The notes beneath the pieces were generated by a model. That model was not told where the DNA came from. It worked only from the letters and a program-made list of their open reading frames with translations, and made no database searches. 64,000 nucleotides of DNA from assembly GCF_025965415.1 (NCBI RefSeq), contig NZ_JAOPWY010000142.1, positions 1-64,000 of the forward strand. Direction: 5' to 3'. The stretch comes from Nocardioides sp. GTDB lineage: Bacteria; Actinomycetota; Actinomycetes; Propionibacteriales; Nocardioidaceae. Below are positions 23,848 to 44,801 of this stretch, in pieces. Numbering within the stretch: the first letter of the stretch is position 1; every line of letters starts with the position of its first letter. The position numbers were made by a program, and so were the translations under genes.

Positions 23848-23863
23848 AATGGTTAGGCCATTA
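23848..23863 (+). promoter_or_regulatory. GntR operator 1 (AATGGTTAGGCCATTA)
   Basis: This near-palindrome follows the island consensus AATGGTNNNACCATTA with one arm mismatch. It ends 21 bases before the ferredoxin start, a place where binding would block transcription or early elongation of the oxygenase operon. It is assigned to the FCD-type GntR protein at 38029-38766 by motif type and recurrence. Confidence 0.65.
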
Positions 23864-24208: not shown

Positions 24209-24240
24209 CACCACCACGATCGATCCGAAGAGGAACCACG

Positions 24241-25521
24241 ATGCTGCGTCCTGATATCAACGATCTACTCAGCCAGACCGGCCCCGGCACCCCGATGGGC
24301 GATCTGTTCAGACGCTACTGGCAGCCCGTGCTCCTGGCCGAAGAACTGCCATCCGACGATTGCCCGCCGGTGCGCGTGAAGATCCTCTCGGAGCGGCTCA
24401 TCGCCTTCCGCGACTCTGATGGCCGATACGGCCTCATGGATGAGTTCTGCGCGCACCGCGGAGTGTCGCTGTGGTTCGCACGGAACGAGCAGGGTGGCCT
24501 GCGGTGCCCCTACCACGGCTGGAAGTACGACGTCACGGGTCAGGCCATCGAGGTGCCCAGCGAGCCCGAGACGAGCAGCTTCTGCGCGAACGTCAAACTC
24601 AAGTCCTATCCGATCGTGAAGCTGGGCGACCTGCTCTTCGCCTACCTGGGAGATCCCGAAAGGCAACCGCCGTTGCCGGAATGGGAGCCCTACACCGTCC
24701 CCGAAGGTCAGGCGTTCACCTCCAAGCGGCTGCAGGAGTGCAACTGGCTCCAGGCGCTCGAGGGCGGCATCGACTCGAGCCATGTCTCCTTCCTGCACTC
24801 GGGCAACCTCGAGAGCGACCCGCTCTTCAAGGGAGCGAAGGGCAACCAGTACAACAGGGGCGACCTCATGCCGTCGTTCGAAGTCGTCGACTACGAAGGC
24901 GGGCTGCTGGTCGCCGCCCGGCGCAACGCCGAGCAGGGCCACTACTACTGGCGCGTCACGCCGTGGGTGCTACCCAACTTCACGATGGTGCCTCCACGAG
25001 GCGACCACCCCGTGCACGGTCACTTCTGGGTCCCGATCGACGACGAGAACTGCTGGGCCTACAGCTTCGACTACCACCCCACGCGCCAGCTCACTGAGCA
25101 GGAGGTCACGGCCATGCGGGCCGGCATGGGCGTGCACAGCGAGAACGACGACGCATACCGTCCACTCGCCAACAAGGACAACGACTACCTCATGGATCGA
25201 GACGCCCAGCGTCGCGGTGTCACCTATTCAGGGATCAAGGGCATCGCTCTCCAGGACTCGTCTCTGCAGGAGTCGATGGGGCCGGTCGTCGACCGGACCA
25301 AGGAGCGCCTGGTCGCCACGGACGCAGGCATCATCAAGGCGCGTCAGAAACTGCGCAAGGCAGCCATGGCTCTCCAAGAGGGCGTCGAGCCCGTCGGAAA
25401 CCGCGCCAAGGACCAGAGGGTGCGGTCGGTGGCGATCGTCCTGCCTGCGGACCAGTCCTTCGTCGAGGGCATCGGCGACGCGATGATCGCCCGCCCCGGC
25501 GTCCCCCAGACCACGGTCTGA
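24241..25521 (+). CDS. Rieske non-heme iron oxygenase, phthalate 4,5-dioxygenase type
   Basis: This is the 426-residue oxygenase component. The Rieske cluster ligands are C70, H72, C89 and H92 (CAHRG and CPYHGWKY). The mononuclear iron site is D178, H181 and H186 in GIDSSHVSFLH. The opening TGPGTPMGDLFRRYWQPVLL, along with VPSEP, is characteristic of the phthalate 4,5-dioxygenase group of single-subunit oxygenases, which act on aromatic acids or demethylate aryl ethers. ATG at 24241 follows AAGAGGAA. Phthalate or a related aromatic diacid is the inferred substrate because a dihydroxyphthalate-decarboxylase-like gene lies 2 kb downstream; a different substrate cannot be excluded. Confidence 0.88.
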   Translation: MLRPDINDLLSQTGPGTPMGDLFRRYWQPVLLAEELPSDDCPPVRVKILSERLIAFRDSDGRYGLMDEFCAHRGVSLWFARNEQGGLRCPYHGWKYDVTGQAIEVPSEPETSSFCANVKLKSYPIVKLGDLLFAYLGDPERQPPLPEWEPYTVPEGQAFTSKRLQECNWLQALEGGIDSSHVSFLHSGNLESDPLFKGAKGNQYNRGDLMPSFEVVDYEGGLLVAARRNAEQGHYYWRVTPWVLPNFTMVPPRGDHPVHGHFWVPIDDENCWAYSFDYHPTRQLTEQEVTAMRAGMGVHSENDDAYRPLANKDNDYLMDRDAQRRGVTYSGIKGIALQDSSLQESMGPVVDRTKERLVATDAGIIKARQKLRKAAMALQEGVEPVGNRAKDQRVRSVAIVLPADQSFVEGIGDAMIARPGVPQTTV

Positions 25522-28719: not shown

Positions 28720-28735
28720 TTTGGTCAGACCATTG
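28720..28735 (+). promoter_or_regulatory. GntR operator 2 (TTTGGTCAGACCATTG)
   Basis: TGGTCAGACCA is a perfect match to the TGGTNNNACCA core. It lies in the 97-bp divergent interval between the decarboxylase-like gene (start 28663) and the zinc dehydrogenase gene (start 28761), so it could control both directions. Confidence 0.68.
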
Positions 28736-28760: not shown

Positions 28761-29912
28761 ATGACTGAGAAGGTGCGCGCGGCCGTCCGGACCGCGCCGG
28801 AAACCACCGAGCTGCGCGAGCTGGACCTGCCGCGCATCGACGCCGAGTCCGCGCTGCTCAAGATCGAAGTGGCAGGCATCTGCGGGACGGACGTGAAGCT
28901 CTACAGCAACCCGCCGACGACCCCGGCGACGCGCGGCCCGGTCATCATGGGCCACGAGAATGTCGGTGTCATCGCCGAGGCGGGGAAGAAGTTCACGGCA
29001 CGGCACGGGCTGCGGGAGGGAGACCGCGTCTTCGTCGAGCACTACGTCGCGTGCTTCAACTGCGAGTGGTGTCGCATCGGCGAGTACCGGCACTGCGAGG
29101 CCACCGACTGGCGCACCAACCCGGATGCCCGTCGGTTCGGCTACACGTCCGCCGACAACCCCGGAACCCTGTGGGGCGGCTTCTCCGAATACATGTTCCT
29201 GCCCTGGAACGCGGTGCTGCACAGGATCCCCGACGGCATCACCCCCGAGCAGGCTGGTCTGGTGATGCCCTTGTCCAACGGCATCGAATGGGCACTCCTC
29301 ACGGCCGGCGTCGGCTACAACGACACCGTCCTGATCCAGGGACCGGGGCAACAGGGGTTGTCCCAGCTCGTGGCTGCCAAGCAGGCCGGAGCGGCTCAGA
29401 TCATCGTCTCCGGCACCACGCGGGACAGGAAGCGATTCGACCTCGCCCTGGAGCTCGGCGCCGATGCCGTCATCGACGTTCTGAAGGAGGATCCCCGCGA
29501 GAAGGTCATGGACCTCACCCACGGACGCGGCGTCGACTACGTCCTCGATTGCACCTCACGCGCCGGCACGGCCCCCGTGCTGCTGGGAGTCTCCGTGCTC
29601 AAGCGGCGCGAAGGAACGCTGCTGATCCAGGGTGAGCTCGCCGCGTTCCCGGACTTCCCTGTCAAGGCCGTCACCGAGAAGGCCATCACCATCAAGTCGG
29701 CGCGCGGGCACTCCTTCAACGCCTGCGAACTCGCCGTGGCGCAGCTGGCGTCCGGTCGCTTCCCCCTCGAGAAGCTTGCTACCCACAGGTACGGCATCGA
29801 CCAGGTCGATCACGCCATCCGAGTCCTCGCCGGTGAGACCGATGAGGACGCGATCCATGTCTCGATGATGCCCGAGCTCATCGGCCAGCCCGGAGGGGCG
29901 GTCACGCGATGA
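28761..29912 (+). CDS. zinc-dependent alcohol dehydrogenase family (MDR)
   Basis: This is a 383-residue medium-chain dehydrogenase. Catalytic zinc ligands fit CGTD and GHEN. The structural zinc loop is CFNCEWCRIGEYRHC (four Cys). The nucleotide-binding fold reads LIQGPGQQGLSQLVAAKQAG. The operon with LigK- and LigJ-like genes suggests a step such as oxidation of a cis-dihydrodiol or of an alcohol/aldehyde intermediate, but MDR enzymes are too diverse to fix the substrate. The stop overlaps the RraA-like start by 4 bases. Confidence 0.85.
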   Translation: MTEKVRAAVRTAPETTELRELDLPRIDAESALLKIEVAGICGTDVKLYSNPPTTPATRGPVIMGHENVGVIAEAGKKFTARHGLREGDRVFVEHYVACFNCEWCRIGEYRHCEATDWRTNPDARRFGYTSADNPGTLWGGFSEYMFLPWNAVLHRIPDGITPEQAGLVMPLSNGIEWALLTAGVGYNDTVLIQGPGQQGLSQLVAAKQAGAAQIIVSGTTRDRKRFDLALELGADAVIDVLKEDPREKVMDLTHGRGVDYVLDCTSRAGTAPVLLGVSVLKRREGTLLIQGELAAFPDFPVKAVTEKAITIKSARGHSFNACELAVAQLASGRFPLEKLATHRYGIDQVDHAIRVLAGETDEDAIHVSMMPELIGQPGGAVTR

Positions 29913-30616
29913 GCGGCCTGGTCGTCACCAATCCGCCGCGAGCAGACATCGGCGTCGCGGCACAGCTCGCCGCCCACGGCGTCGCGACGGTCCACGAGGC
30001 GCAAGGCCGGACGGGGCTCCTGGGATCTCACCTCAACCCCGTGTGGCCCGGCGCCCGCATCGGCGGTCCCGCCGTGACAGTGACCGTCGCTCCCGGAGAC
30101 AACACCACGATCGCCGTGGCTGTCGAGCAGTGCCGCGAAGGTGACGTACTGGTCGTGTCCCCGACGGCACCGTGCGACATGGGCTACTTCGGAGACTTGC
30201 TCGCGACGTCCCTGCAGGCGCGCGGCGTGCTCGGACTGGTCATCGACGCAGGGGTGCGCGACGTCGCGGACCTCGAGGCGATGGGCTTTCCGGTGTGGTC
30301 GAAGTGCGTCTCGGCCGAAGGCACCGTCAAGGGGACGCTCGGCGACGTCAACGTCCCCATGGCGATCGCCGGCCAGATCGTCGCGCCGGGAGACGTGATC
30401 GTTGCCGACGAGGACGGCGTCGTGGTGGTGCCGCGACTCGATGCTGCTCACGTCCTGCAAGCCGCGGAGGCGAGATCGAAGAAGGAGGCAGCCTCCCGCG
30501 AGCGGTATGCGGCCGGGGAGATCTCCCTGGACGTCAACAACATGCGACCCATGATCGAAGCGGCCGGCGTGCGATACGTCGACCACGAGTCGTACCTGAA
30601 GGAGCGCCGGCGTTGA
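29909..30616 (+). CDS. RraA/LigK-like class II aldolase (HMG/CHA aldolase family)
   Basis: This 235-residue protein carries the family core GLVIDAGVRDVADLEAMGFP and GDVNVPMAIAGQIVAPGDVI with the conserved Arg-Asp pair and the aspartate of VADEDGVVVVP. LigK/ProA members split 4-carboxy-4-hydroxy-2-oxoadipate into pyruvate and oxaloacetate, the last step of the protocatechuate 4,5-cleavage route. Position directly before a LigJ-like hydratase, which makes that substrate, favours this over RraA-type RNase E inhibitors, which also lack a partner in this phylum. Confidence 0.84.
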   Translation: MSGLVVTNPPRADIGVAAQLAAHGVATVHEAQGRTGLLGSHLNPVWPGARIGGPAVTVTVAPGDNTTIAVAVEQCREGDVLVVSPTAPCDMGYFGDLLATSLQARGVLGLVIDAGVRDVADLEAMGFPVWSKCVSAEGTVKGTLGDVNVPMAIAGQIVAPGDVIVADEDGVVVVPRLDAAHVLQAAEARSKKEAASRERYAAGEISLDVNNMRPMIEAAGVRYVDHESYLKERRR

Positions 30617-31605
30617 TCATCGACATCCACGGTCATTTCACGACCGCGCCGAAGGCGCTCGACGAGTTCCGTGCCGCGCAGCTGCGCGGTGAGAGGTCTG
30701 GGCTCGCGCCGATCTCGGACGACGAGTTGCGGGAGAGCGTCGCGAACAATCAGTTGCGGGTGATGCAGGAGCGCGGCGGGGACGTCATGCTGTTGTCGCC
30801 CAAGGCGTCCGGGATGGAGCACCACGTCCCCGACCCGGAGATCGCCAACGCCTGGGCGGCCGTGTCCAACTCTCTCGTGCACAGAGTGAGTGAGCTGTAC
30901 CCGAAGAACTTCGCTCCCGTCGCTCAGCTTCCGCAGACCCCAGCGGGAAATGTCGCCGGCGTCCTGGCCGAGATCCGCCGCACCGTCGAGGACCTGGGGT
31001 TCGTCGGCGTCAACCTCAATCCCGACCCGTCGGGCACCTGGGCGGGTCAGCCACTCACCGACCCGGCCTGGTTCGACATCTACGAGCTCCTCGAGGAGCT
31101 CGACGTCCCCGCCATGGTGCATGTCTCCACCGCGTGCAACCCCAACTTCCACACCCTCGGCGCCCACTACCTGAACGCGGACACCAGCGTCTTCATGCAG
31201 CTCCTCCAGTCCGACCTGTTCGAGCGCTTCCCCCGGCTGCGCTTCGTCATCCCCCACGGCGGCGGAGCGGTGCCCTACCACTGGGGCCGCTACCGCGGAC
31301 TGGCGATGCGCTACGGCTGGCCCGATCCCTCGGACCTGCTCTCCCACGTCTACTTCGACACCTGCGTGTACCACCAGGCCGGCATCGACCTGTTGCTCGA
31401 CGTCGTGCCCTCGACGAACATCCTCTTCGCGTCGGAGATGTTGGGTGCCGTTCGCGGCGCCGATCCCGACACCGGAGTGGAGTGGGACGACACGTTGGCC
31501 TATCTACGAGGCGCGTGGCTTCCCGCCCGTGACCGGGAGGCCGTCTTGTGCGAGAACGCGCTCCGGGTCTACCCGCGGCTCGCTGACCGTTTCCCCCGCC
31601 CGTAG
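30613..31605 (+). CDS. 4-oxalomesaconate hydratase-like amidohydrolase (LigJ type)
   Basis: This is a 330-residue TIM-barrel metalloenzyme of the amidohydrolase-2 family. The opening MIIDIHGHFTTAPKAL supplies the H-x-H metal ligands. LYPKNFAPVAQLPQTP, NLNPDPSG, VIPHGGGAVPYHWGR and YFDTCVYH follow the LigJ pattern. LigJ hydrates 4-oxalomesaconate to 4-carboxy-4-hydroxy-2-oxoadipate. The start is TTG at 30613 overlapping the RraA stop; no nearer ATG gives the H-x-H motif. Decarboxylases of the same family (gamma-resorcylate type) are an alternative, but the aldolase neighbour supports LigJ. Confidence 0.82.
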   Translation: MIIDIHGHFTTAPKALDEFRAAQLRGERSGLAPISDDELRESVANNQLRVMQERGGDVMLLSPKASGMEHHVPDPEIANAWAAVSNSLVHRVSELYPKNFAPVAQLPQTPAGNVAGVLAEIRRTVEDLGFVGVNLNPDPSGTWAGQPLTDPAWFDIYELLEELDVPAMVHVSTACNPNFHTLGAHYLNADTSVFMQLLQSDLFERFPRLRFVIPHGGGAVPYHWGRYRGLAMRYGWPDPSDLLSHVYFDTCVYHQAGIDLLLDVVPSTNILFASEMLGAVRGADPDTGVEWDDTLAYLRGAWLPARDREAVLCENALRVYPRLADRFPRP

Positions 31606-31993
31606 GCGCGCGTCAGCGTGCGACGGCATCGACGTACATCCGCTCGCGGGCGGGATCACCCGGGAAGATCTCGATTGAATAACGACTCGAAGAATGGTTT
31701 GACCTTTATACCGATAATGTGAGCCGATAGGCCTGCGGCGTGACGGGCGTCACGGACGATCGTGACTCGTCCGGCCTGGCGCCCGGTCTCCGCGAACGCC
31801 GAACGAATGGGAGTGGCTCTGGTGCTCGAGGCATTCAACAGCAGTCTCACATCCATGCCCCGCCCGCCTCGTCCGCCCGGCTGATACCCGCGATGTCCGG
31901 GCGGCCCGAAGGGGACCGACGTCGATCGCCGTGCCGCTCCGGCCCTACCCACACGAACCTGTCCCAGCGCCCACCAGGAGTTGATCCGCAGTC
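31606..31993. other. 388-bp intergenic region before the norQ-like gene
   Basis: No gene is seen. It holds GntR operator 8 at 31693-31708 and an unusually AT-rich patch for this genome (about 31672-31725), which looks like a promoter region for the norQ/norD/M29 operon. A ribosome binding site AGGAG lies at 31976-31980. Confidence 0.5.
31693..31708 (+). promoter_or_regulatory. GntR operator 8 (AATGGTTTGACCTTTA)
   Basis: This keeps AATGGT and the ACC of the second half (AATGGTNNNACCATTA consensus; CATTA is CTTTA here). It lies about 290 bases upstream of the norQ-like start, inside an AT-rich patch, and links this operon to the oxygenase regulon. Confidence 0.55.
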
Positions 31994-32839
31994 ATGACAA
32001 CCGTGACGGACGGTGTAGTGACCACCGCGTCCGCCGTCCCCTTCTACGTCGCCCAGGCCGACGAGGTGGCCGTCTTCGAAGCTGCCTTCCACAGACGCCT
32101 CCCGATCCTCCTCAAGGGCCCGACCGGATGCGGCAAGACGCGCTTCTTGGAGCACATGGCCGCGCGACTGGTCGGCGTGGACGGCAGCACCGGCCTGAGT
32201 CTGACCACCGTCGCATGCCACGAAGACCTCACGGTGAGCGACCTGGTCGGCCGGCACCTGCTCAACGCCGACGAGACGGTGTGGGTGGATGGACCGCTCA
32301 CCCACGCAGTCCGCTCCGGTGGGCTGTGCTACCTCGACGAGATCGTCGAGGCCCGCAAGGACACCACGGTGGTGATCCACCCCCTGACCGACCACCGTCG
32401 CACCCTGCCTATCGACAAGCTCGCAACCGAGGTGAGAGCGCACGACGACTTCCTGCTCGTCCTGTCCTACAACCCCGGATACCAGTCCTCCCTCAAGGAG
32501 CTCAAGCCGAGCACGCTTCAGCGCTTCGTCGCGATCGAGTTCGGCTACCCGCATGCAGACGTGGAGGTGGAGATCGTACGTGGAGAGACCGAGGCGGACG
32601 CGCACACCGCACGACAGCTGGTCACCCTCGCCAACAACATCCGGAACCTGCAGGACTCCACCGCCATCGAGGGCCCGGGCACTCGACTGCTGGTGCATGC
32701 CGCTGAGCTCATCCTTGCGGGCCTGCCGCCAGCCCGAGCATGCGATGTGGCCATCACCAGCGTCCTGACCAACGACCCGGACACGGTAACCACGCTCACC
32801 GAACTGGTAGAGGCCCAGTTCCGAGCGGCAGAGCGGTGA
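31994..32839 (+). CDS. MoxR-class AAA+ ATPase, CbbQ/NorQ type
   Basis: This 281-residue protein has Walker A GPTGCGKTRFLEHMA near residue 42 and Walker B CYLDEIVEARKDT near 112, followed by VVIHPLTDHRRTLPIDKLAT, LVLSYNPGYQSSLKELKPST and QRFVAIEFGYP. These are the diagnostic segments of CbbQ and NorQ. Together with a VWA partner such ATPases remodel metalloenzymes: they activate Rubisco (CbbQO) or help fit the iron centre of nitric oxide reductase (NorQD). Neither Rubisco nor NO reductase genes are in the window. The stop overlaps the VWA gene start (GTGA). Confidence 0.93.
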   Translation: MTTVTDGVVTTASAVPFYVAQADEVAVFEAAFHRRLPILLKGPTGCGKTRFLEHMAARLVGVDGSTGLSLTTVACHEDLTVSDLVGRHLLNADETVWVDGPLTHAVRSGGLCYLDEIVEARKDTTVVIHPLTDHRRTLPIDKLATEVRAHDDFLLVLSYNPGYQSSLKELKPSTLQRFVAIEFGYPHADVEVEIVRGETEADAHTARQLVTLANNIRNLQDSTAIEGPGTRLLVHAAELILAGLPPARACDVAITSVLTNDPDTVTTLTELVEAQFRAAER

Positions 32840-34941
32840 TCACGAGGACCCGTAGGGATCTCCCCGAAGGCCCGGTCGATTTCGAGCGGCAGTCGCGGGT
32901 CGCCTCACTGTTCTACGAAGCCATCGCGGGTAGGACGGTTGGCTTCCACCTCCTGGACGACGTGTCCGGCGAAACGCCGATCCCGCCGGACACCGACGAC
33001 ACGGTGAGGCTGCCCGGTGTCGTCGACTTCTTCGACAACGGACACGACAACTGGGGCTGGTACCTGGTGGCTCTGGCACACCGGGCATTCACCTACGCCC
33101 CCGGCATCGGCACACTGGGCGAGGTCGGCAACGGCCTGAGCGGGAAGGATCTCGTCAACGACTTCGTATCCCGTTGCCTCCACCCCGCCACAGGCGAGGC
33201 TGCCCTGGGCGTCCTCGAAGGCACCCGGTTAGATGGCGTGCTGCGGCGCCGGCATCCCGGCCTTCGCGAGCACCACGCCCGAGCTCAGCGTCATGCCCTC
33301 GACCGGCTGGGGATCGAGCGCGTGTCCGACCGCGGGCCGCGCAACCAGTTGCTCACGATCCTGGCCGCCAAGTCGCTGGCACATGAGCCGGTCGACGTGC
33401 TCCTCGCCCCCAGCGTGGCGCAGGCACTTCCGCGCTGCGAGGACCTCGTCGACTGGATGACCTCGGAGGTCACCGTTGCCGAGAGCGTGCTGGCTGCGGT
33501 GTGCCTCTACCGCTGGCTCAGCGACACCCCGCCGATGACCACCCAGGATCCTGTGGCCTTCACTCTGCACCCCGCGCAACCAGCCCCGCGGCCCGCCGCG
33601 GCTGCCGACGCGGAAGCGATGCTCGCCGGTCTCGGCGGCGCTCAGCGCAGCAAGCTCGAAGAGGAGGACAGGTACGCACTGGACGTGCCGCTCGTGCTCT
33701 ACCGAGGCGTCCTGGGCAGCCGTTACCTGGGACACCGCGACACGGGCCGCCTCGAGAATCCGGCGATGTTCGCATGGCGCGAGGGGCTTGAGGGCCACGC
33801 GCACCACGACCACGACCACGGGCACGGGCACGGGCACGACGATGGGGACCACGAGGAACGAGGCGGTCCGCCCGAACCGATCCCGCACGAGCACGGTGCC
33901 GTACATCGTTGGGACGTGCCGTGGCTGGCACCCGTGTCCATCGGCAGCTCCAACGTGTTCTTCTATCCGGAGTGGGACTCGGTCCGCTCCACCTACCGAC
34001 CCTCGTGGTGCCGCGTCGTCGAGGAGCCGCTCGCTGCCGCAGGCGGCCCGTCCCCCTACGGGCGCGCAGTCCTGGCTGCTCACCGCAGCACTGTGACGGC
34101 GCTGCAACGCGAATGGAGCCGGCTCCCGACGGAAGGCATGTCGCTTCAGCGCGCACTGGCCGACGGAGACGAGATCGACCTGTCCGCAGCAGTGGACACC
34201 TTGGTCGGACTGCGCGCCGGAAGCGGCTTCAACGGCAACGTCTACACACGCAAGACACCGCTCGGACGAGACGTGGTCTGTGGGGTTCTGATCGATGTGA
34301 GCATGTCGACGGCCGACCACGTCGACACCCGGTCCGAGGGCGGATTCACGATCGACGAGACCGCCCAGCACCTGTATGGAACCCCCTATCGCACCGTCCT
34401 CGACCATGAGCGCGAGACAGCCATGGTGTTGGCCGAGATCATGGAACGCGTCTCGGACCAGTCCATGGTCTATGCCTTCTCCTCCAGTGGGAGGCACTCC
34501 GTGCGGATGCAGCGGGTCAAGTCGGTCCACGAGGGCGTCGGCACGGCCGTGTCGCGCCGGATCGAGTCGCTGCGTCCTCTCGACGCCACGCGCATGGGAG
34601 CCGCCGTACGCCACATGACGGCCCAGCTGCGGCGCACGGAGGCGCGCTCGAAGATGCTCATGGTCATCAGTGACGGACTGCCGTACGACGAGGACTACGG
34701 CGACGACTACGGCGACGGCAAGGACCTGTACGCGCTGCAGGACACCGTCCGAGCCTTCGACGAGGCCGAATCGATGGGCGTTCGCTCGGTGCTGTTCCTC
34801 ACCGGAGACCTCGATCTCGGACGCCTCGACGTCCTGGGTGACCGCGCCGTGTCGGTCCCACATCCGGGAGACCTCGTCCCGGCGGTCATGAACCGCTACC
34901 TACGCACACGCAGCTCCGCGCTCAACCTCGCACGGATCTGA
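32836..34941 (+). CDS. VWA-domain protein, NorD/CbbO-like, with His-rich loop
   Basis: This is a 701-residue partner of the AAA+ ATPase. The C-terminal VWA domain has an intact MIDAS: DVSMS near residue 487, Thr in LDATRMGAA, and Asp in VISDGLPYDEDY. The N-terminal 300 residues are the helical adaptor part. In between lies a striking metal-binding stretch, residues about 321-341 (HAHHDHDHGHGHGH followed by an acidic run). The GTG start at 32836 overlaps the norQ-like stop. By analogy the complex would bind and remodel a target enzyme, most likely a neighbour; the His-rich loop hints at metal handling. Target identity is inference. Confidence 0.85.
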   Translation: MITRTRRDLPEGPVDFERQSRVASLFYEAIAGRTVGFHLLDDVSGETPIPPDTDDTVRLPGVVDFFDNGHDNWGWYLVALAHRAFTYAPGIGTLGEVGNGLSGKDLVNDFVSRCLHPATGEAALGVLEGTRLDGVLRRRHPGLREHHARAQRHALDRLGIERVSDRGPRNQLLTILAAKSLAHEPVDVLLAPSVAQALPRCEDLVDWMTSEVTVAESVLAAVCLYRWLSDTPPMTTQDPVAFTLHPAQPAPRPAAAADAEAMLAGLGGAQRSKLEEEDRYALDVPLVLYRGVLGSRYLGHRDTGRLENPAMFAWREGLEGHAHHDHDHGHGHGHDDGDHEERGGPPEPIPHEHGAVHRWDVPWLAPVSIGSSNVFFYPEWDSVRSTYRPSWCRVVEEPLAAAGGPSPYGRAVLAAHRSTVTALQREWSRLPTEGMSLQRALADGDEIDLSAAVDTLVGLRAGSGFNGNVYTRKTPLGRDVVCGVLIDVSMSTADHVDTRSEGGFTIDETAQHLYGTPYRTVLDHERETAMVLAEIMERVSDQSMVYAFSSSGRHSVRMQRVKSVHEGVGTAVSRRIESLRPLDATRMGAAVRHMTAQLRRTEARSKMLMVISDGLPYDEDYGDDYGDGKDLYALQDTVRAFDEAESMGVRSVLFLTGDLDLGRLDVLGDRAVSVPHPGDLVPAVMNRYLRTRSSALNLARI
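33787..33860 (+). other. sequence encoding His-rich metal-binding loop in the NorD-like protein
   Basis: A run of alternating CAC with GAC or GGC codons encodes about nine histidines within 16 residues, followed by Asp/Glu. Such H-x-H strings are typical of nickel, zinc or cobalt chaperones. I do not recall this as a standard feature of NorD or CbbO. Confidence 0.6.
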
Positions 34942-34968
34942 CGTCTCACCCATCCCGAAAGGAAATCC

Positions 34969-36396
34969 ATGCCCGAGTTCGGCGACTTCGATTATCCGGC
35001 GCCCCGCTACCCGGACTACCTCAACCAGCCTCGCGTGACCGACATCGACGAGCTCATGCCGATCGCGCGTCACCATGTCGGACGACGCTACGGACGTTCG
35101 GCGCTGGGTGGGATCGAGAAGAACGACTCGATCCTGATCATGACCCACTCCGACCAGGACCCGTACGTGTTCGAGGCCGTCAAGCGAGCCATGCTCGAGG
35201 CCGGCGCCAAGTCCGTCGACCACGTGACGCGCCGAGACCTCGGCATGAGCACCGAGTACTACAGCGCAGCCGACGGTTGGCGCGAGGCCGTCGACCGGCA
35301 CCGTGAGATGACCGAGACAGGTGTGGAGTACTCCGTCGAGGCTGCCGCGCTGAAGCGCTACCTCAAGGACCGCCCCGCATACAGCCGCATCCATGCCGGT
35401 GATTCTGGTCGCCCGCACTGGGCCCGCGCGACGGGCGGAAACATCAAGGGCAACTGGCTCTTCAACGACTACGAGACCTTCATCTCCAAGTGCACCGCCT
35501 ATCCCGACGAGCTCTTCCGGTTGCTCGACCTGAAGGTCCTCGAGCAGTTCTCCACTGCCGAGGAGGTGCGGATCACCGACCCGCAGGGCACGGACATCAG
35601 CTGGAAGGTCACCGAGGAGCAGGCGCGGTTGTGGCCCAAGGGCGCCTACCTGAGCGGTCACATCCTCGGCTCGACCATCCAGGCGGTCAGGTTCGGCTAC
35701 GACGTCAAGGAGTTCCTCGAGCAGGCCCGGATCTTCTTCCCCACCGTCAACGGCGTGATTGCCGGCACGAGCAATCACACCGGCTTCTTCCCTCACATCG
35801 AGGTGGAGGTCGAGGGAGGCATGATCAAGGAGATCCGCGGCGGAGGTCGCTATGGAGAGGTGTGGCGCGAGATCGTCGACCGCTACAAGGACGTCGAGTA
35901 CCCGGGCTTCCCCTACAAGGGCTGGGCCTACTTCAACGACTGCTCCATCGGCACGGTGCCCAAGGGACACCGAGGCATCGAGAAGATGTGGCGGAGCACC
36001 GACCCCACCACCAACCTCCCCGAGCGGATGCGCGCCGGCGTCATCCACTTCGGCTTCGGCGCCGAGCACTGGGATGAGACCTTCCTGGCCTACGCCCGGG
36101 AGAACAACCTGCCCACGATGCACTTCCCGCACGTGCACTGCATCTTCCCGACGTTCTCGATCAAGCAGCGTGGCACCGGCGAGTGGATCAACCTCATCGA
36201 CAAGGGCTTCATGCCGATCACGAAGGACCCGGACGTGGTGCGTCTCGCGGAGACGATCGGCGCCACCGATCTTCTCGAGTACGACTGGATCCCTGCCGTC
36301 CCTGGCATCAACTACAAGGGCGACTACTGGAAGGACTATGCCGAGGACTCGGTGGACTGGATCCGTCGTGACCTGGCGGGCGAGTTCGTCCGGTGA
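34969..36396 (+). CDS. M29 aminopeptidase-fold metalloenzyme (AmpS/NicX-like)
   Basis: This is a 475-residue protein, longer than M29 peptidases (about 400) and than NicX (about 350). The N-terminal part (SILIMTHSDQDPYVFEAVKR) has the substrate-binding domain pattern. The C-terminal part shows ERMRAGVIHFGFGAEHWDE and then MHFPHVHCIFP, in the region where M29 proteins place their metal ligands (several His and Glu). NicX, an iron-dependent 2,5-dihydroxypyridine ring-cleaving dioxygenase, belongs to this fold, so a ring-opening role is possible in this aromatic-degradation setting. A peptidase role would have no evident purpose here. It directly follows the NorQ/NorD-like pair in one operon. 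Confidence 0.65.
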   Translation: MPEFGDFDYPAPRYPDYLNQPRVTDIDELMPIARHHVGRRYGRSALGGIEKNDSILIMTHSDQDPYVFEAVKRAMLEAGAKSVDHVTRRDLGMSTEYYSAADGWREAVDRHREMTETGVEYSVEAAALKRYLKDRPAYSRIHAGDSGRPHWARATGGNIKGNWLFNDYETFISKCTAYPDELFRLLDLKVLEQFSTAEEVRITDPQGTDISWKVTEEQARLWPKGAYLSGHILGSTIQAVRFGYDVKEFLEQARIFFPTVNGVIAGTSNHTGFFPHIEVEVEGGMIKEIRGGGRYGEVWREIVDRYKDVEYPGFPYKGWAYFNDCSIGTVPKGHRGIEKMWRSTDPTTNLPERMRAGVIHFGFGAEHWDETFLAYARENNLPTMHFPHVHCIFPTFSIKQRGTGEWINLIDKGFMPITKDPDVVRLAETIGATDLLEYDWIPAVPGINYKGDYWKDYAEDSVDWIRRDLAGEFVR

Positions 36397-36680: not shown

Positions 36681-37916
36681 TCAGTCGCGCAAGAAGTCCC
36701 GAAGAGCCACGGTGCCATCGCCAGCGACCTCGACGGGCACGTTCTTGCCGGCATCCAGGATCCGCCGCACGGCCATGTAGTCCAACGGGGAGTTGATGGC
36801 GTCGATGGAAACCAGGGCCTGTCCGCGGTAGTACAGGAGGGAGAACTTCTCCGCGTCAGGATCGCCTCTCAGGACCACACGGTCGTACCCCTTGTTGACG
36901 CCGGCGATCTGAAGCTTCACATCCCCCTGATCGGACCAGAACCAGGGGACCGCGGGAGGGGGAGCCTCGACACCGAGCATCGTTGCTGCCGCCACCCGCG
37001 CCTGGACGATGGCGTTGTCGACTGACTCAAGGCGGATGTGCCCGAGCGAGGGGTGCGTCGAGACGGTGCAGTCTCCAGCAGCGACGACGCTGGGGACGCT
37101 GGTGCGCGCAGCTTCGTCCACGAGTACTCCGCCCTCACAGTGCAAGCCGATGGACTCGGCCAGTCCGGTTCTGGGGAGGAGGCCGATGCCGACGATGACC
37201 ACGTCGGCGGGGAGGGTGTCTCCTGTCGAGATGCCTACCCCGGTGACCCGTCCGTCCGTGCCCGTGAACCCCACGACCGAGGTCTGCACCAGCACGGTGG
37301 TCCCCCTGCGGCGGTGGGCGTCGGCGTAGAAGTCGGAGACGATGCGGTCGACGGCTCGTGACAGGAGGCGATCAGATGCTTCGACGACGGTCACATCCTT
37401 GCCGGCCGCCCTGGCGACCGCAGCGCCCTCCAGCCCCACGAAGCCGCCACCCACGACGACGACATGTGAGGCTTCCGCGAGCTCGACTCGGAGAGCAGCG
37501 GCGTCCGCCACGTCTCGCAGATAGTGGATGCCGCGAAGGTCGTCGCCCGGCACTCGGAGGCGGCGAGGCCTCCCGCCGACGGTGAGGGCGAGGCGCCCGA
37601 AGTGCAGTGAATCGCCACCACGAGTAGTCGCCGTGCCAGCCCCGAGGCGTGGATCGCTCAGCTCCAGGTCCTCGATCCATTCACCGCACCGGAGCTCGAT
37701 CCGGTGTTGTTCGAAGAACTCGGGACCACGCAACAGCAGGCGATCCTCGGCGAGGTCTCCCTTGAGATAGGCCTTTGACAGAGGGGGGCGCTGGTAGGGG
37801 GGATGCGTCTCTCCCCCGAGCAACGTGATGCTTCCGACGTCCCCGAGTTGACGCAGGCTCGTGGCCAACTGCAGGCCCGCTTGACTGGCACCGATGATGA
37901 GCGTGTCTGTATGCAA
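36681..37916 (-). CDS. FAD-dependent ferredoxin reductase of the Rieske system
   Basis: This is a 411-residue pyridine nucleotide-disulfide family reductase of the ferredoxin-NAD(P)H type. The FAD fold is TLIIGASQAGLQLATSLR, then PPYQRPPLSKAYL; the NAD(P)H fold is VVVVGGGFVGLEGAAVAR; the second FAD motif is VVAAGDC; and the C-terminal domain has VPWFWSDQGDVKLQIAG. It most likely reduces the adrenodoxin-type ferredoxin at 23885-24208. The start is TTG at 37916, with AGGAG about 6 bases upstream and GntR operator 3 immediately before. It lies downstream of the regulator gene on the same strand. Confidence 0.9.
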   Translation of the reverse strand: MHTDTLIIGASQAGLQLATSLRQLGDVGSITLLGGETHPPYQRPPLSKAYLKGDLAEDRLLLRGPEFFEQHRIELRCGEWIEDLELSDPRLGAGTATTRGGDSLHFGRLALTVGGRPRRLRVPGDDLRGIHYLRDVADAAALRVELAEASHVVVVGGGFVGLEGAAVARAAGKDVTVVEASDRLLSRAVDRIVSDFYADAHRRRGTTVLVQTSVVGFTGTDGRVTGVGISTGDTLPADVVIVGIGLLPRTGLAESIGLHCEGGVLVDEAARTSVPSVVAAGDCTVSTHPSLGHIRLESVDNAIVQARVAAATMLGVEAPPPAVPWFWSDQGDVKLQIAGVNKGYDRVVLRGDPDAEKFSLLYYRGQALVSIDAINSPLDYMAVRRILDAGKNVPVEVAGDGTVALRDFLRD

Positions 37917-37926
37917 CCTGTCTCCT

Positions 37927-37942
37927 AATGGTTATACCATTA
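37927..37942 (+). promoter_or_regulatory. GntR operator 3 (AATGGTTATACCATTA)
   Basis: This is the best copy in the island: AATGGTNNNACCATT is fully palindromic, except that the outermost pair is A/A. It starts 11 bases upstream of the reductase start codon. Confidence 0.75.
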
Positions 37943-38028: not shown

Positions 38029-38766
38029 TCAGAGGCTGGCGACTCGCGACGCGGTCCGGCTCAGGTGCGCGTTCATGATGCGACCTGCCTCAGCCACGTC
38101 CCGCGACTGGATCGCAATGACGATTGCCCTGTGCTCCTCGTTTCCCTGCGGACCCATCAGAGGCGCGCTCACCTTCGCCTCGCGAAGGGACATGAGCATG
38201 GGGCCGTGGAAGCTGTGGATCAACGCCGTGAGCGCGGGATTGTGCGCGCACTCGGCAAGGCGCACGTGAAAGGCAGCAGACATGGCTACGTCGTACTCGC
38301 CCTTGGTGAGTGCCTTCTGGCCATCGTCGATCAGTTGTAGCAGGTCGGCGATATCGTCGTCGGTGGCGCGATCGACGATGAGGGGCAGGGCACCCGACTC
38401 CACGACCTTTCGAGCCTCCGTCACATCCGAGGCGGTGAGGTGGGACAGGCTCAGCAGATCGGCCAGACCCTCGCCGAGGCGTTCGGTGGTGGGGGTCGTC
38501 ACGAAAGCGCCGCCTCGGGCACCGACCTTGATCGACACCAGGCCGCTGGATTCGAGCACGCGCAGTGCCTCACGGATCGTCACACGGCTGACGCCGAACT
38601 GCTCGCACAGGTCGCGCTCGCTGGGAAGTCGATCGCCCGGCTGCAGAGACCCGTCTCGAAGCAGGAGCTTGACCTGGTCCACGATCACCTGGGAGACCCG
38701 GGACGTGCTGACGCGGCTGAACATGTCGCTCTTGGTCGTTGAGCGCTCGTCGCTAGAGCTGGTCAT
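38029..38766 (-). CDS. GntR-family regulator, FadR subfamily (FCD domain)
   Basis: This 245-residue regulator has an N-terminal winged helix (LPSERDLCEQFGVSRVTIRE near residues 45-65) and a C-terminal all-helical FCD ligand domain with the metal-binding His positions in AAFHVRLAECAHNP and ALIHSFHG. FadR-subfamily members recognise TGGTNNNACCA-type palindromes, the motif repeated across this island. The ligand is probably a pathway substrate or intermediate. ATG at 38766 follows a GGGGGGA run. Operators 4 and 9 lie in the divergent interval to the MFS gene, suggesting autoregulation. Confidence 0.9.
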   Translation of the reverse strand: MTSSSDERSTTKSDMFSRVSTSRVSQVIVDQVKLLLRDGSLQPGDRLPSERDLCEQFGVSRVTIREALRVLESSGLVSIKVGARGGAFVTTPTTERLGEGLADLLSLSHLTASDVTEARKVVESGALPLIVDRATDDDIADLLQLIDDGQKALTKGEYDVAMSAAFHVRLAECAHNPALTALIHSFHGPMLMSLREAKVSAPLMGPQGNEEHRAIVIAIQSRDVAEAGRIMNAHLSRTASRVASL

Positions 38767-40237: not shown

Positions 40238-40253
40238 AATGGTCAGTCCATTA
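40238..40253 (+). promoter_or_regulatory. GntR operator 5 (AATGGTCAGTCCATTA)
   Basis: Near-perfect copy (one base off in the second half, TCC for ACC), 175 bases upstream of the M24-family gene. Confidence 0.65.
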
Positions 40254-40427
40254 TATGTTCGGCTCACCTCGCTTCGTTCGCCTCCGTGGGCGCAGCTGAC
40301 ACGAACCGTGTAGTGCGTACCGCTATGTGTGGCCGACTCGAGAATCGAGCGCAGTCAGATGCCCTTGACACCCCATCGGGACGGGACACCTCCCGGACCG
40401 CGAACGGTCACCACGCGAAGGAAACCA

Positions 40428-41687
40428 ATGCCTAGTCATGATGTCACCGCGCCTGGCGGCGTGCCCTTTACTGAGCGTCTCAGCTACGGGCCCGGTGTGG
40501 TCGATTGGCAGGCGCGTATCGACCCCGCTGAATTGCGCCGGCAGCGGGCCTCTCGTGCCCGCACGGTCATGCGCGAGCATGAGGTCTCTGCGGTGCTGGT
40601 GAGTGGTGCGGCGTACCTGCGCTACCTCACGGGACTGACCGGACCAGAGTTCTGTCCGAGTCTGTGGTACGTCCTGTTCCCGGCCGAGGGCGAACCAGTG
40701 GTTTTCGCGCATGCGGGATACGACCGTACGTTGCGAGTGGAGGCGCCGTGGGTCTCAGAGATTCGGACGGCGCGGTCGTGGCTGCGTGGCATCCCCGGTG
40801 ATGGGGCCTGCAAGGAAGAGGCCCGACTCTTCGCGGCGGAGATCAACACCGAGCGCACGCGTCTGGGCATCGACTCGGAACGCTTGGGCATCGTCGGATT
40901 CGATCGGTATGCCCGTGAGGCTCTGACCGCGGCCGGAGTGGGCCTGATCCCCGGCGAACCCGCACTGATGGCCGCGATGGCGGTCAAGACACCCATTGAG
41001 ATCGATTGTCTGCGCATGGCGGGAGCCATCACGGATCGAATGTGGGCTGCCATGGCGAGTGCCACCCGGGTAGGCATGTCTGACGCTGAAGTCAGCGCGA
41101 TAGGCCGATCGGCGGGTAGCACCGGCGGAGCCGATCAAGCCGTGGCTGGTCTACGGGCGGGGATTCTCACGGTGGATCGTGGGCTGAAGGGCACCAATCA
41201 GTTCCTCAATCCCGGGGACCTCGCGTTTGGCAACCTGTGCGGCACGAGCTACATGGGCTACAAGTCGTGCGTCTATCGCACGTTCGTCGTCGGGCGGGAA
41301 CCCACCGCCGACGAACAGTCCCGAATGAGCGACCTTCAGGGACGAATCTTCGCGACGATCGGGGATTTGCGACCAGGGGGATCGACAGATGTCGCCGCCA
41401 GACACTTCCCGAAGGCCAAGGACCTTGGCTTCGACGACGAAGTCGATCTGCTCACGATCGAAATCGGACATGGGATCGGACTGCATCAGTACGAGTATCC
41501 CGCTGTGAATCGTCAGTGGTCTCTCAACCATCCTCAAGAGATCACCGCAGGCATGGTGATCGCGGTGGAGGGTCACATCGACGTGCCAGGGCGGGGAGGG
41601 CTCCGAATCGAAAGCATGTGCGTCGTCACCGACCGGGGCCCGGAAGTGATCGACCGCTTTCCGACCGACATCCGCTCCGTGGGCTGA
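40428..41687 (+). CDS. M24 (pita-bread fold) enzyme lacking two metal-ligand aspartates
   Basis: This is a 419-residue protein with an N-terminal creatinase-like domain and a C-terminal pita-bread domain. The expected first metal Asp is Asn (GDLAFGN, residue 269) and the second is Cys (GYKSCVYRTF, residue 281). The His of GHGIGLHQYE and the glutamates of AVEGHI and LRIESM remain. Loss of the first two ligands recalls creatinase, a metal-free family member that hydrolyses a C-N bond, so a non-peptidase hydrolase or lyase is likely. ATG at 40428 follows GAAGGA. It belongs to the GntR regulon through operator 5. Confidence 0.8.
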   Translation: MPSHDVTAPGGVPFTERLSYGPGVVDWQARIDPAELRRQRASRARTVMREHEVSAVLVSGAAYLRYLTGLTGPEFCPSLWYVLFPAEGEPVVFAHAGYDRTLRVEAPWVSEIRTARSWLRGIPGDGACKEEARLFAAEINTERTRLGIDSERLGIVGFDRYAREALTAAGVGLIPGEPALMAAMAVKTPIEIDCLRMAGAITDRMWAAMASATRVGMSDAEVSAIGRSAGSTGGADQAVAGLRAGILTVDRGLKGTNQFLNPGDLAFGNLCGTSYMGYKSCVYRTFVVGREPTADEQSRMSDLQGRIFATIGDLRPGGSTDVAARHFPKAKDLGFDDEVDLLTIEIGHGIGLHQYEYPAVNRQWSLNHPQEITAGMVIAVEGHIDVPGRGGLRIESMCVVTDRGPEVIDRFPTDIRSVG

Positions 41688-41881: not shown

Positions 41882-41897
41882 AATGGTATGACCATCC
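41882..41897 (+). promoter_or_regulatory. GntR operator 6 (AATGGTATGACCATCC)
   Basis: TGGTATGACCA is a perfect core, 89 bases upstream of the importer start, and 27 bp (start to start) from operator 7. Confidence 0.68.
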
Positions 41898-41908
41898 TCA
41901 CAGTGACT

Positions 41909-41924
41909 AATGGTTCTACCAATC
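41909..41924 (+). promoter_or_regulatory. GntR operator 7 (AATGGTTCTACCAATC)
   Basis: TGGTTCTACCA is a perfect core. The paired arrangement with operator 6 would allow two dimers to bind upstream of the ABC genes. Confidence 0.68.
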
Positions 41925-41985: not shown

Positions 41986-43068
41986 ATGCAGAAGCTCGCA
42001 GGAGTCCGCCCGGTGCTCGTGGCGATGGTCGTTCTTCTCACGACCGCGTGCGGGGGCGGCGAAGGCGAAGCGGCCGAAAGCCGCTCGGTCGAGGACGTGC
42101 TGGAGGAGGTCGGCGACCTGCCCGTCGATGAGCGACGAGCACGCCTCATCGACCTGGCAGAGAAGGAGGGGAGCTCCATGACGGTCTACACGACGACCGC
42201 TGGCGACATCAACGACGAGGTCTCCGCCGCCTTCACTGAAGACACCGGCGTTCAGTTGCTGAGCTACCGCGCCGACGCGGAGGACGTACGCACTCGAATT
42301 CTGCAGGAGAGCGAGGCGGGCCGACTCACCGCCGACGTCACCTGGATCGGCGACAGCAGGCTGATCCCGGTGCGGGACGCCGGCCTCCTGGCGCCGTACA
42401 CCTCGCCGCATCAGGCAGATCTCGTGGAGGGTTCAGTGTCTGAGTTCTGGACCATCAACCACTACAACATGTACGTGCCGGCCTGGAACACCGATGCCGT
42501 CGCGCCTGACGAGGCCCCGACCAGCTGGGAGGACCTGGCAGACCCGGTGTGGGACAACAGGATGACCCTCGAGGCGTCTGACTTCGACTGGTACTGGTCG
42601 GTGAGCAACTACCTCGCCGAGGACCTCGGACGCAGCGAGGAGGAGATCGACCAGTACTGGGCGGATGTGGTGGACGGCGCCGACTTCAACTCCGGTCACA
42701 CCAGCACCCGCCAGCTCCTGATCGCCGGCGAGTACGACTTGTTCGCCTCCGACTTCAGCAACGGCGTCGAAGCAGGAAAGAGCGATGGGGCACCGGTGGA
42801 GTGGCTGCCGCCCCTGGAGCCGCTGTTCGCGACTCCGGAGGCCGCCGCGATCCTGAACACCTCTGCCAACCCGGCCACATCGGTCCTGTTCATGGATTGG
42901 CTGATCTCGGATGGTCAGGACGTGCTGCGTGAGCTCGCCTACGACGTGACCAGGAAGGATCTGCTGTCCTTCGACGCAGACGCCGACCTGCGTTTCATCG
43001 ACGCGGAACGGTGGTTCGAGGTCGAGGCTGACGTGATCGACGAGTACTCAGCGCTGGCCGCTTCGTGA
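41986..43068 (+). CDS. ABC transporter substrate-binding lipoprotein (iron/thiamine/polyamine-type, family 1)
   Basis: This 360-residue protein is a lipoprotein: basic start, hydrophobic stretch and lipobox LTTAC (Cys near residue 22), then a Gly/Glu-rich linker. The mature part has the type-2 periplasmic fold of the FbpA/AfuA class (TVYTTTAGDINDEVSAAFTE, then VTWIGDSRLIPVRDAGLLAP). This class carries ferric ions, thiamine, 2-aminoethylphosphonate and some organic acids, so the cargo is open. The permease gene overlaps by 4 bases. Placement in the GntR regulon suggests uptake of the pathway substrate, or of iron for its non-heme enzymes. Confidence 0.85.
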   Translation: MQKLAGVRPVLVAMVVLLTTACGGGEGEAAESRSVEDVLEEVGDLPVDERRARLIDLAEKEGSSMTVYTTTAGDINDEVSAAFTEDTGVQLLSYRADAEDVRTRILQESEAGRLTADVTWIGDSRLIPVRDAGLLAPYTSPHQADLVEGSVSEFWTINHYNMYVPAWNTDAVAPDEAPTSWEDLADPVWDNRMTLEASDFDWYWSVSNYLAEDLGRSEEEIDQYWADVVDGADFNSGHTSTRQLLIAGEYDLFASDFSNGVEAGKSDGAPVEWLPPLEPLFATPEAAAILNTSANPATSVLFMDWLISDGQDVLRELAYDVTRKDLLSFDADADLRFIDAERWFEVEADVIDEYSALAAS

Positions 43069-44801
43069 TGCCGAGCCCTGGAGCGCGGGGAGCGGTGGTG
43101 AGACTGCTCAAACCCCCTCGACTGCTGAGTGGGGAGTCGGTCCTGGCCATCTCGTTGACGATGGCGATCGCCTGGCTCGCGGTCGTGCCGCTCGGCTTCT
43201 TGGTCTACACGACGTTCGTCGTCGACGGGTCCCCGAGCCTCAGCAATGTCTCCGCGGCGTTCGGTGCCGACGCGTCGATGCTGTGGACGCTGACCGCCAA
43301 CACCATGACCTACGCCGTCGGAGCGACAGTTCTCGCGCTCATCATCGCGACGCCCATGGCATACCTCGCCGCCCGCACAGATGTGCCGTTCCGACCTCTG
43401 TTGTTCGTCTCGGCACTGGCACCACTGGTGATACCCGGTGTCCTGCACACGATCGCGTGGATCTTTCTTGGTGCGGACAGGTCGGGCTGGCTCAACGAGC
43501 TGACCGAGCTGATGTTCGGGATCAGACCGTTCAACGTGCGGTCCATGGAGGGGATGATCTTCGTCGAGGCGACCAACCAGATACCCCTGCTCTTCTTGCT
43601 CATGTATGCCGCCTTCCGGAGCGCTGATCCATCGCTCGAAGAAGCGGCACTCACGACTGGGGCGCGTCTACCGACCGTGATCAGGCGGGTTTCGCTGCCT
43701 CTTGTGAAGCCCAGCCTCTTCGCGGGCGTGCTGATCATGATCGTGCTCGCCATGGAGTCGTTCGAGGGGCCAAGTCTGCTCGGCCTCCCAGCGGGGATCC
43801 AGGTGTTCACGTCCCGCATCTTCCAACTGTTGCGGACCTATCCCATCGAGTATGGCCAGGCGGGTGCGTTCGCCCTCGTCCTGCTCGCTCTGACCGCCAT
43901 CGGCGTCTTCGCCTACTCCCGCTTGGGGAAGGGAACCGCTGCCTTCGAGACGGTCAGTGGCAAGGCATTCCGGGCGCGCCGGCACCAACTCGGAAAGCTG
44001 CGTGTCCCTATGGGCGCGGCGATCGTGGTGCTGTTCGTCGTCTCGACGGTCCTGCCGGTCGGCGTCCTGGTGCTGATGTCCTTCCAGCCGTACCCGAGCG
44101 TTCCCACCATGGGTTCGTTCACCCTCGACAACTATCGCTACGTCTTCGGCAATCCACGTGTGCTGGACGCCCTGGGGAACTCACTGATGCTGTCGATCGG
44201 AGCGGCGACGATCATCATGTCGATGATGACCGTCGCGGCTTGGCTGGTCCTCAGGTCGCGGCACCCTGGCGCCTGGGCCCTCGACGGCGTGTCGTTCCTG
44301 CCGATCGCGATCCCTGGCGTCGTCATGGGAGCAGCCCTGCTCATCGTCTACCTGCGACTGCCCGTCCCGATCTATGGAACTCTGTGGATCCTCCTGATCG
44401 CCTACTGCACTCGGTATATGCCATACGGAATGCGTTATGCGTCCGCTGGGCTCCGGCAGATCAATGGCGAATTGGAGGAAGCCGCGTTCGCCAGCGGAGC
44501 GTCGCGAATGCGGACGCTGAGAAGTGTCGTCCTCCCGCTCATGGCTCCGAGTTTTGCGGCCGGCTGGATATTCATCGTGATGTCCGCGATCCGAGAATTG
44601 TCCAGTTCGATCCTGCTCTACAGTCCCGGGGGCGAGGTGCTGGGACCGCTCATCTGGGACATGTGGGACACCGGCCTAGCCACGGAGCTGTCTGCTGCCG
44701 GGGTAGTAATGATGGTCCTCCTCGGGATTCTGGCGCTATTCGCCAAATTGGTTGCTGACTATTTCGGCGTAAAGGAGAGTAAGGATAATCATGTCGGTTG
44801 A
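43065..44801 (+). CDS. ABC transporter permease, two-domain (FbpB-type)
   Basis: This 578-residue membrane protein carries two fused permease domains, about residues 20-290 and 310-570, each with six membrane segments. EAA loops are visible twice: LEEAALTTGARLPTVIRRVS and LEEAAFASGASRMRTLRSVV. Such fused permeases work with a single binding protein and an ATPase dimer. ATG at 43065 overlaps the binding-protein stop, and the ATPase gene begins within its last codons. Confidence 0.9.
   Translation: MMPSPGARGAVVRLLKPPRLLSGESVLAISLTMAIAWLAVVPLGFLVYTTFVVDGSPSLSNVSAAFGADASMLWTLTANTMTYAVGATVLALIIATPMAYLAARTDVPFRPLLFVSALAPLVIPGVLHTIAWIFLGADRSGWLNELTELMFGIRPFNVRSMEGMIFVEATNQIPLLFLLMYAAFRSADPSLEEAALTTGARLPTVIRRVSLPLVKPSLFAGVLIMIVLAMESFEGPSLLGLPAGIQVFTSRIFQLLRTYPIEYGQAGAFALVLLALTAIGVFAYSRLGKGTAAFETVSGKAFRARRHQLGKLRVPMGAAIVVLFVVSTVLPVGVLVLMSFQPYPSVPTMGSFTLDNYRYVFGNPRVLDALGNSLMLSIGAATIIMSMMTVAAWLVLRSRHPGAWALDGVSFLPIAIPGVVMGAALLIVYLRLPVPIYGTLWILLIAYCTRYMPYGMRYASAGLRQINGELEEAAFASGASRMRTLRSVVLPLMAPSFAAGWIFIVMSAIRELSSSILLYSPGGEVLGPLIWDMWDTGLATELSAAGVVMMVLLGILALFAKLVADYFGVKESKDNHVG

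Follow-up and report, generated by a model that had tools for sequence, protein, structure and literature searches.

Among the described systems closest to the locus reported here are the NorQ/NorD pair of cytochrome-c nitric oxide (NO) reductase and the CbbQ/CbbO pair, an activase of Rubisco. In the available parts of the two source papers, NO reductase and Rubisco are the clients described for NorQ and CbbQ (PMC13036017, PMC9976466), the helix-2-insert motif GRxLL/IxxxxT of the ATPase binds the finger of its von Willebrand factor type A (VWA) partner, and iron insertion by NorQD requires the linker of NorD (both PMC13036017). Here we analysed a stretch of 64,000 nucleotides from Nocardioides sp. 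(assembly GCF_025965415.1, contig NZ_JAOPWY010000142.1, positions 1 to 64,000), hereafter called the window, in which a norQ-like gene, a norD-like gene and the gene of a 475-aa protein appear to form a single operon, preceded by an operator-like site. In contrast to the NO reductase systems, no NO reductase genes were recognised beside this operon, and the partner is a protein with the predicted fold of NicX and the M29 peptidases.

We give even odds to a reading in which a new family of mononuclear and probably Fe(II)-dependent oxygenases, placed near NicX within the M29 fold, includes the 475-aa protein, with NorQ/NorD as its dedicated maturation or reactivation machine. If so, a known machine would have a new kind of client, together with a new enzyme family. 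Among the matches listed in the open-licence PMC literature, no paper links NorQ/MoxR pairs to NicX or to M29-fold enzymes, or names the three-gene unit.

All three genes lie on the forward strand. The norQ-like gene (positions 31994..32839) encodes an AAA+ ATPase of 281 aa, and its stop codon overlaps the GTG start of the norD-like gene (GTGA), which encodes a VWA protein of 701 aa (32836..34941); the gene of the 475-aa protein (34969..36396) follows after a gap of 27 bp. The ATPase matches the Pfam families AAA_5 (1.5e-31; 109.7 bits, curated cut-off 22) and CbbQ_C (1.6e-24; 86.4 bits, cut-off 20.6), passing both cut-offs, and its closest solved chains are NorQ (1.1e-87) and CbbQ (1.9e-86). 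It carries the Walker A motif GPTGCGKT and the Walker B motif LCYLDE, and GRHLLNADET at residue 86 agrees with the helix-2-insert pattern. By its domains, the protein clearly belongs to the NorQ/CbbQ family, in line with the original prediction of a CbbQ/NorQ-type ATPase.

The norD-like protein alone has no match in Pfam, NCBIfam or PHROGs. It does match solved NorD chains, at best with 4.4e-30 over residues 373-659, and phmmer places these matches within residues 373-659 or 311-685 only, so that its N-terminal part was not recognised as NorD by this search. The AlphaFold model (predicted local distance difference test, pLDDT, 69; predicted template modelling score, pTM, 0.49) shows a helical N-terminal part, a predicted disordered linker and a C-terminal VWA domain with the residues D-x-S-x-S, T and D of a metal-ion-dependent adhesion site (MIDAS). 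Since these MIDAS residues are invariant in 19 aligned rows, the proposed VWA partner with an intact MIDAS is borne out, and judged by its C-terminal half the protein is clearly of the NorD type. Judging from the available parts of PMC13036017 and PMC9976466, the pair shares with NorQ/NorD of NO reductase an ATPase with AAA_5 and CbbQ_C domains and a GRxLLxxxxT insert motif, a VWA partner with a MIDAS, a YPEWD motif before the VWA domain, and a disordered linker between the N-terminal part and the VWA domain.

The linker itself differs. Residues 295-367 of the NorD model (numbering from base 32833) have a pLDDT below 50, and within this stretch lies PPEPIPHEH (33868..33894, forward strand), an instance of a PxxPxxHxH motif that recurs in the NorD proteins linked to the 475-aa enzyme. 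We aligned 19 of 27 NorD-type gene calls, dropping most of those truncated at a contig end; the two Pro of the motif and His352 never vary (19/19), and His354 is kept in 18 of 19 rows. The HxH is absent in all three NorD compared that are linked to NO reductase (3/3). It is also absent from a background set, in which none of 15 NorD has an H-x-H within the 60 residues before [YF]-x-E-W-D; these 15 come from those of 20 background stretches that gave a VWA open reading frame with this pattern, the other five, without a frame by the pattern, being uncounted. Comparison of these sequences therefore supports a PxxPxxHxH motif that is specific to the enzyme-linked NorD among those compared. A long His-rich run, HAHHDHDHGHGHGHDDGDH (33796..33852, forward strand), stands just before the motif and had attracted attention originally as about nine His in 16 residues; the maximum is eight His in 16 residues and nine in 20. 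We considered this run as a general conserved feature and rejected it, as it is local to the window locus with a shorter run in only one other locus (L007), and PxxPxxHxH is conserved instead.

Scanning genome contigs with the 475-aa protein gave 25 loci in 19 genomes (best-segment identity 57-66%). The carriers are Actinomycetota and Betaproteobacteria, and most of the latter belong to the Oxalobacteraceae. Three of the genomes are bins with three loci apiece, and two loci (L021 and L024) share one contig. At 24 of the 25 loci, norQ and/or norD matches lie on the same strand within 2.5 kb of the enzyme gene, in two gene orders, i.e. norQ after the enzyme gene (20 loci) or norD before it, as in the window (4 loci). 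At the exception (L031), the contig ends two bases past the enzyme match. Five loci near contig ends (L009, L012, L025, L027 and L028) show a match to one partner only, and the gene calls of L009 contain a norD start. In addition, L029 holds a second enzyme copy, with the nearest norQ 8 kb off on the same contig, and in its unit a solute-binding-protein-like gene stands between enzyme and norQ. L027 and L066, the latter from the family of the window, are the same 3,640-base contig. The genes norQ, norD and that of the enzyme are thus supported as a recurring three-gene unit in two phyla, and the original prediction withstands the refuting condition that it had set, a neighbourhood that does not recur in other genomes.

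Control loci lack the association. As background, 20 stretches 6-12 kb in length were taken from 18 genomes of the phylum, each holding a CbbQ_C gene (20 of 28 CbbQ_C matches, omitting that of the window, two of genome G046 and five weaker ones). Of these stretches, 19 contain a NorD-like match and none an enzyme match (0/20). Conversely, norQ/norD matches were absent from all four contigs with a distant enzyme subfamily of about 30% identity (L062-L065), from all five stretches with bridging NicX-like proteins (L069-L073) and from eight small loci of the M29 family PF02073 with flanks of about 1.5 kb. Neither a scan of viral contigs for relatives nor a tblastn search of plasmids with the enzyme gave a match. 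A NorQ tree of 23 linked, 25 background and three NO reductase-linked sequences has a branch that sets all 23 linked NorQ apart, with support that is weak (51/48) and too low to show a single origin.

The proposed description of the third gene product as an M29-fold protein holds for the fold predicted by the model and fails at the level of family profiles. The protein has no match in Pfam or PHROGs and none in NCBIfam up to E 0.1, including none to the LigB family PF02900; none of 27 members of the enzyme family matches PF02073, and a Pfam search of 26 aligned relatives returned four chance-level families only, none of them M29. When the AlphaFold model was compared with the PDB by Foldseek, all eight matches at E<=0.001 were chains of AmpT, PepS, AmpS and NicX (NicX 3.9e-9), so that M29/NicX-fold chains alone pass this threshold. 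VIA-align ranks NicX highest, with Z 17.9 and 17.8 over 309 and 311 residues, followed by the peptidases (10.9-11.7), CgnE (10.1), CgnB (9.3) and a next row at 6.6. A profile of the enzyme family with its distant subfamily matches six bridging proteins (99.5% probability, E 3.7e-22), whose own profile finds only NicX in the PDB at E<=0.1 (1.1e-27), making NicX the nearest solved relative of the bridging sequences; against a mainly canonical M29 alignment, the match was weak (13.5%).

According to the available part of PMC7910607, the iron ligands of NicX, the 2,5-dihydroxypyridine 5,6-dioxygenase (PDB 7cn3/7cup), are His265, Ser302, His318 and Asp320. We placed these residues on the bridge proteins by the profile match and carried them to the enzyme by a MAFFT alignment. 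The columns of His265, His318 and Asp320 correspond to Asp324, His388 and His390 (codons at 35938, 36130 and 36136), which are conserved in 27/27, 26/26 and 26/26 family members, the truncated L031 dropping out of the last two. This suggests that a 2-His-1-carboxylate set is kept, with the carboxylate and one His exchanged. In the same columns, four of four distant relatives have Glu/His/His, two bridge proteins have the NicX combination His/His/Asp, and the two M29 peptidases aligned have Glu/His/Asp. His270, His360 and His385 are conserved as well; His360 (26/27) shares its column with a His found in three short bridging proteins and precedes the Ser302 position by two residues. Column conservation thus supports a predicted mononuclear 2-His-1-carboxylate site, in line with the mononuclear metal centre suggested originally; the exact His/Ser/His/Asp set of NicX is not found.

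M29 peptidases use a dinuclear set of two Glu, two His and one Asp. In the enzyme, the first Glu is not kept and the final Asp is replaced by His; with no Pfam match and differing ligand columns, we rejected an ordinary M29 peptidase. Compared with NicX, the enzyme is longer (475 versus about 350 residues), shows 12% identity in the structural alignment and is linked to NorQD. It has the same predicted fold as NicX and the M29 aminopeptidases AmpT, AmpS and PepS and, by ligand set or profile, belongs to neither family.

The surroundings of the operon point to aromatic catabolism, as had been proposed. Upstream on the forward strand lie genes for a Rieske oxygenase with a LigXa_C domain (24001..25521), a zinc-type alcohol dehydrogenase (28761..29912), a LigK-type 4-carboxy-4-hydroxy-2-oxoadipate aldolase (29909..30616; PRK09262 323 bits, cut-off 179; TIGR02798 299.6 bits, just below its cut-off of 304.5) and a LigJ-type 4-oxalomesaconate hydratase (30613..31605), whose matches to solved LigJ (PDB 2gwg 2.7e-118, 6dxq 7.5e-112) span residues 1-323 or 1-324 of 330. 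Downstream follow a ferredoxin-reductase-type flavoprotein with Pyr_redox_2 and Reductase_C domains (36681..37916) and a GntR/FadR-type regulator (38029..38766), both on the reverse strand, and, on the forward strand, an M24-family creatinase-like protein (40329..41687) and an ATP-binding cassette (ABC) transporter made up of a solute-binding protein, a double-length permease and an ATPase (41986..45975).

Allowing one mismatch, the palindrome ATGGTNNNACCAT is present at seven places, all in gaps between assigned genes and upstream of catabolic or transport genes. These are positions 23849..23861 before the Rieske oxygenase gene (overlapping a 153-codon unassigned frame), 28721..28733 before the alcohol dehydrogenase-ligK-ligJ genes, 31694..31706 (ATGGTTTGACCTT, one mismatch) 288 bp before norQ, 37928..37940 (no mismatch) before the ferredoxin-reductase-type gene, 40239..40251 before the M24-family gene, and two sites within 41883..41922 (41883 without and 41910 with one mismatch) before the transporter genes. 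The GntR/FadR-type regulator presumably reads these operator-like sites. The idea of a shared operator reaching norQ stands. With up to two mismatches there are 17 sites versus 10.2 +/- 3.1 in shuffles, and 31 sites of the 11-mer core with one mismatch versus 14.4 +/- 3.9, numbers that no shuffle reached; since several of the extra sites lie inside genes or far away, the excess is moderate.

LigJ and LigK convert 4-oxalomesaconate to pyruvate and oxaloacetate in an established pathway. Some enzyme should therefore open a ring to yield 4-oxalomesaconate. A gallate dioxygenase of the GalA/DesB type, which belongs to the LigB family, would fill the same step before LigJ and LigK; it is of a different family from the 475-aa protein, and neither it nor any other ring-cleavage gene was recognised in the regulon. 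The genome has a single PF02900 match, to a frame of 300 codons that lies on a different contig among neighbours that look unrelated; we take it to be of the short YgiD/DODA-like type. The 475-aa protein is therefore the best candidate for the ring opener in this regulon.

It is tempting to speculate, at somewhat less than even chances, that NorQD with its His-bearing linker hands iron to a new NicX-fold ring-cleaving family with a swapped 2-His-1-carboxylate set, which replaces the classical gallate-type dioxygenase in the window. NorQD would load or restore the iron of this enzyme, the conserved PxxPxxHxH motif of the NorD linker may hold or hand over the metal, and the enzyme would open the ring of a (gallate-like) aromatic acid to give 4-oxalomesaconate, which LigJ and LigK could then convert to pyruvate and oxaloacetate. 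From these data, we infer metal insertion or activase action of the NorQD type on a NicX-type enzyme.

Several points weigh against this reading. The enzyme model is of moderate quality (pLDDT 65, pTM 0.67), the 475-aa protein has no direct sequence match to NicX or M29, and NicX itself stands outside the residue alignment, so that its ligands were mapped via the bridge proteins only. The ligand set is swapped relative to NicX (His265 to Asp, Asp320 to His), Ser302 has no counterpart, and the HVH motif is shifted by three residues in hhalign compared with MAFFT. No chaperone pair is mentioned in the available part of the NicX description (PMC7910607). LigJ recurs at one other locus only (L014) and LigK at none, and 4-oxalomesaconate could arise by another route, intradiol and glyoxalase-fold enzymes not having been searched for in the genome. 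Finally, a double cupin gene (Cupin_2; cluster c5) is found at eight loci, where its product could be the ring cleaver, which also argues against one fixed role of the 475-aa protein. As a whole, the original prediction is supported in part: its recurring unit, fold, predicted metal site and regulon hold, the conserved His element is PxxPxxHxH rather than the long His run, and ring cleavage and the action of NorQD on the enzyme stay predictions.

Other explanations share parts of this evidence. Instead of loading the metal first, NorQD might act on the 475-aa protein as an activase in the manner of CbbQ/CbbO on Rubisco, clearing it after turnover of a tight inhibitor, a product or oxidised iron. 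The window ATPase is about equally close to CbbQ and NorQ and has a VWA partner as CbbQ does, and one distant relative of the enzyme without NorQD (L062) has a Clp-type AAA+ protein and an EutA-type reactivase encoded in its flanks; however, EutA is a neighbour at one locus only, the matches of the VWA protein are to NorD chains, and the conserved linker His motif suits metal handling better than inhibitor release, which leaves such an activase unlikely, though worth keeping in mind. A metal-dependent M29-fold hydrolase or lyase in place of an oxygenase, still matured by NorQD, is likewise an unlikely reading of the 475-aa protein. The top Foldseek match by E-value is the aminopeptidase AmpT, and the GTAH/GAMH context in which the His of the three short bridging proteins aligns with His360 resembles the peptidase GxH, although the peptidases' own His lies two columns away. 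On the other hand, two peptidase ligands (in their commonly assigned roles) are not kept, PF02073 does not match, and NicX is placed well above the peptidases by VIA-align and is found by the bridge profile, which detects no peptidase.

NorQD could also serve another metalloenzyme, such as a Rieske oxygenase, a molybdenum hydroxylase or a cupin, with the 475-aa protein as a neighbour or adaptor. According to the available part of PMC9976466, CoxD of carbon monoxide dehydrogenase is a precedent among the MoxR proteins. Molybdenum hydroxylase parts occur near the unit at four loci (L018, L019, L032 and L030), and the window genome has eight such matches, all on contigs other than that of the window (two on C127 and one each on C146, C90, C166, C95, C6 and C29). 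Of the known targets that the original prediction called absent, the genome, which is 95% complete, has no match to the Rubisco large subunit and none to NorB (a search without a positive control). Yet no other gene family occurs at more than nine loci, flanks often ending at contig ends, compared with norQ/norD beside the enzyme at 24 of 25, and another client thus appears improbable. Least of all do we expect a chance association, in which a mobile catabolic island would carry all three genes with no functional link between them. The distribution is patchy indeed: the enzyme was found in 2 of 296 genomes of the phylum and 3 of 120 of the family, the window's own being included in both, and one of these three holds the distant type only. 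But the three genes keep together, in either of two orders, at loci with differing flanks, and of the NorD compared only the linked ones carry the linker motif, making mere hitch-hiking very improbable.

If NorQD matures a NicX-fold oxygenase as we propose, the twisting model of metal insertion would gain a soluble, possibly mononuclear, client. The model could then be tested in a membrane-free system in vitro, where the linker motif offers a target for mutation. Aromatic ring cleavage would gain a protein family without a Pfam match, and the lack of a recognised gene for classical ring opening in this catabolic regulon would be accounted for.

At the other loci, variable neighbours include TctA/TctC transporters, double cupins, thiamine pyrophosphate enzymes and molybdenum hydroxylases, and further ring-hydroxylating dioxygenase alpha and beta subunits, cytochrome P450 and isochorismatase-type genes. 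Many of these suit the uptake and oxidation of small, probably aromatic, acids, with no single pathway common to the loci. On one contig (L027 = L066), the dioxygenase alpha and beta genes come immediately after the unit. At L012, L013, L015 and L028, which belong to Oxalobacteraceae and to one bin of Betaproteobacteria, the enzyme-norQ unit comes right after a gene for a solute-binding protein that has no adjoining permease gene. Some other loci hold genes related to the ABC transporter of the window. We considered an iron importer for this transporter and set the idea aside, as its solute-binding protein matches generic families of such proteins and the twin-Tyr motif for iron was not seen by eye. 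A second AAA protein, of a different Pfam family, is encoded between double cupin and thiamine pyrophosphate enzyme genes at L019 (6385-7296) and L032 (5252-6082).

Around the distant enzyme type, L062 (G336:C169, 2298-7817) is another ATPase-assisted setting, with a 489-aa relative flanked by the Clp-type and EutA-type (369 bits) genes mentioned above and a double cupin further on. In a single genome, an M24 creatinase-like gene directly follows the distant type at L064 (9224-12052, by Pfam) and L065 (3-2763, by reading). Biotin carboxylase and biotin carrier genes, identified by reading, lie near core and distant enzymes at L011 (1103-6551), L063 (182-6106) and L064 (4708-6794), with no carboxylase seen among the biotin-type genes of L064; HMGL-type, CoA-transferase III and amidohydrolase genes accompany them at L011 by Pfam and, similarly, at L063 and L064 by reading. 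In the window, two genes without a Pfam match encode proteins of 163 aa (25533-26024, beside a PanB-like gene) and 305 aa (27746-28663, with relatives in L014), and a HipA_C-domain protein (47654-48406) lies beyond the transporter end of the region.

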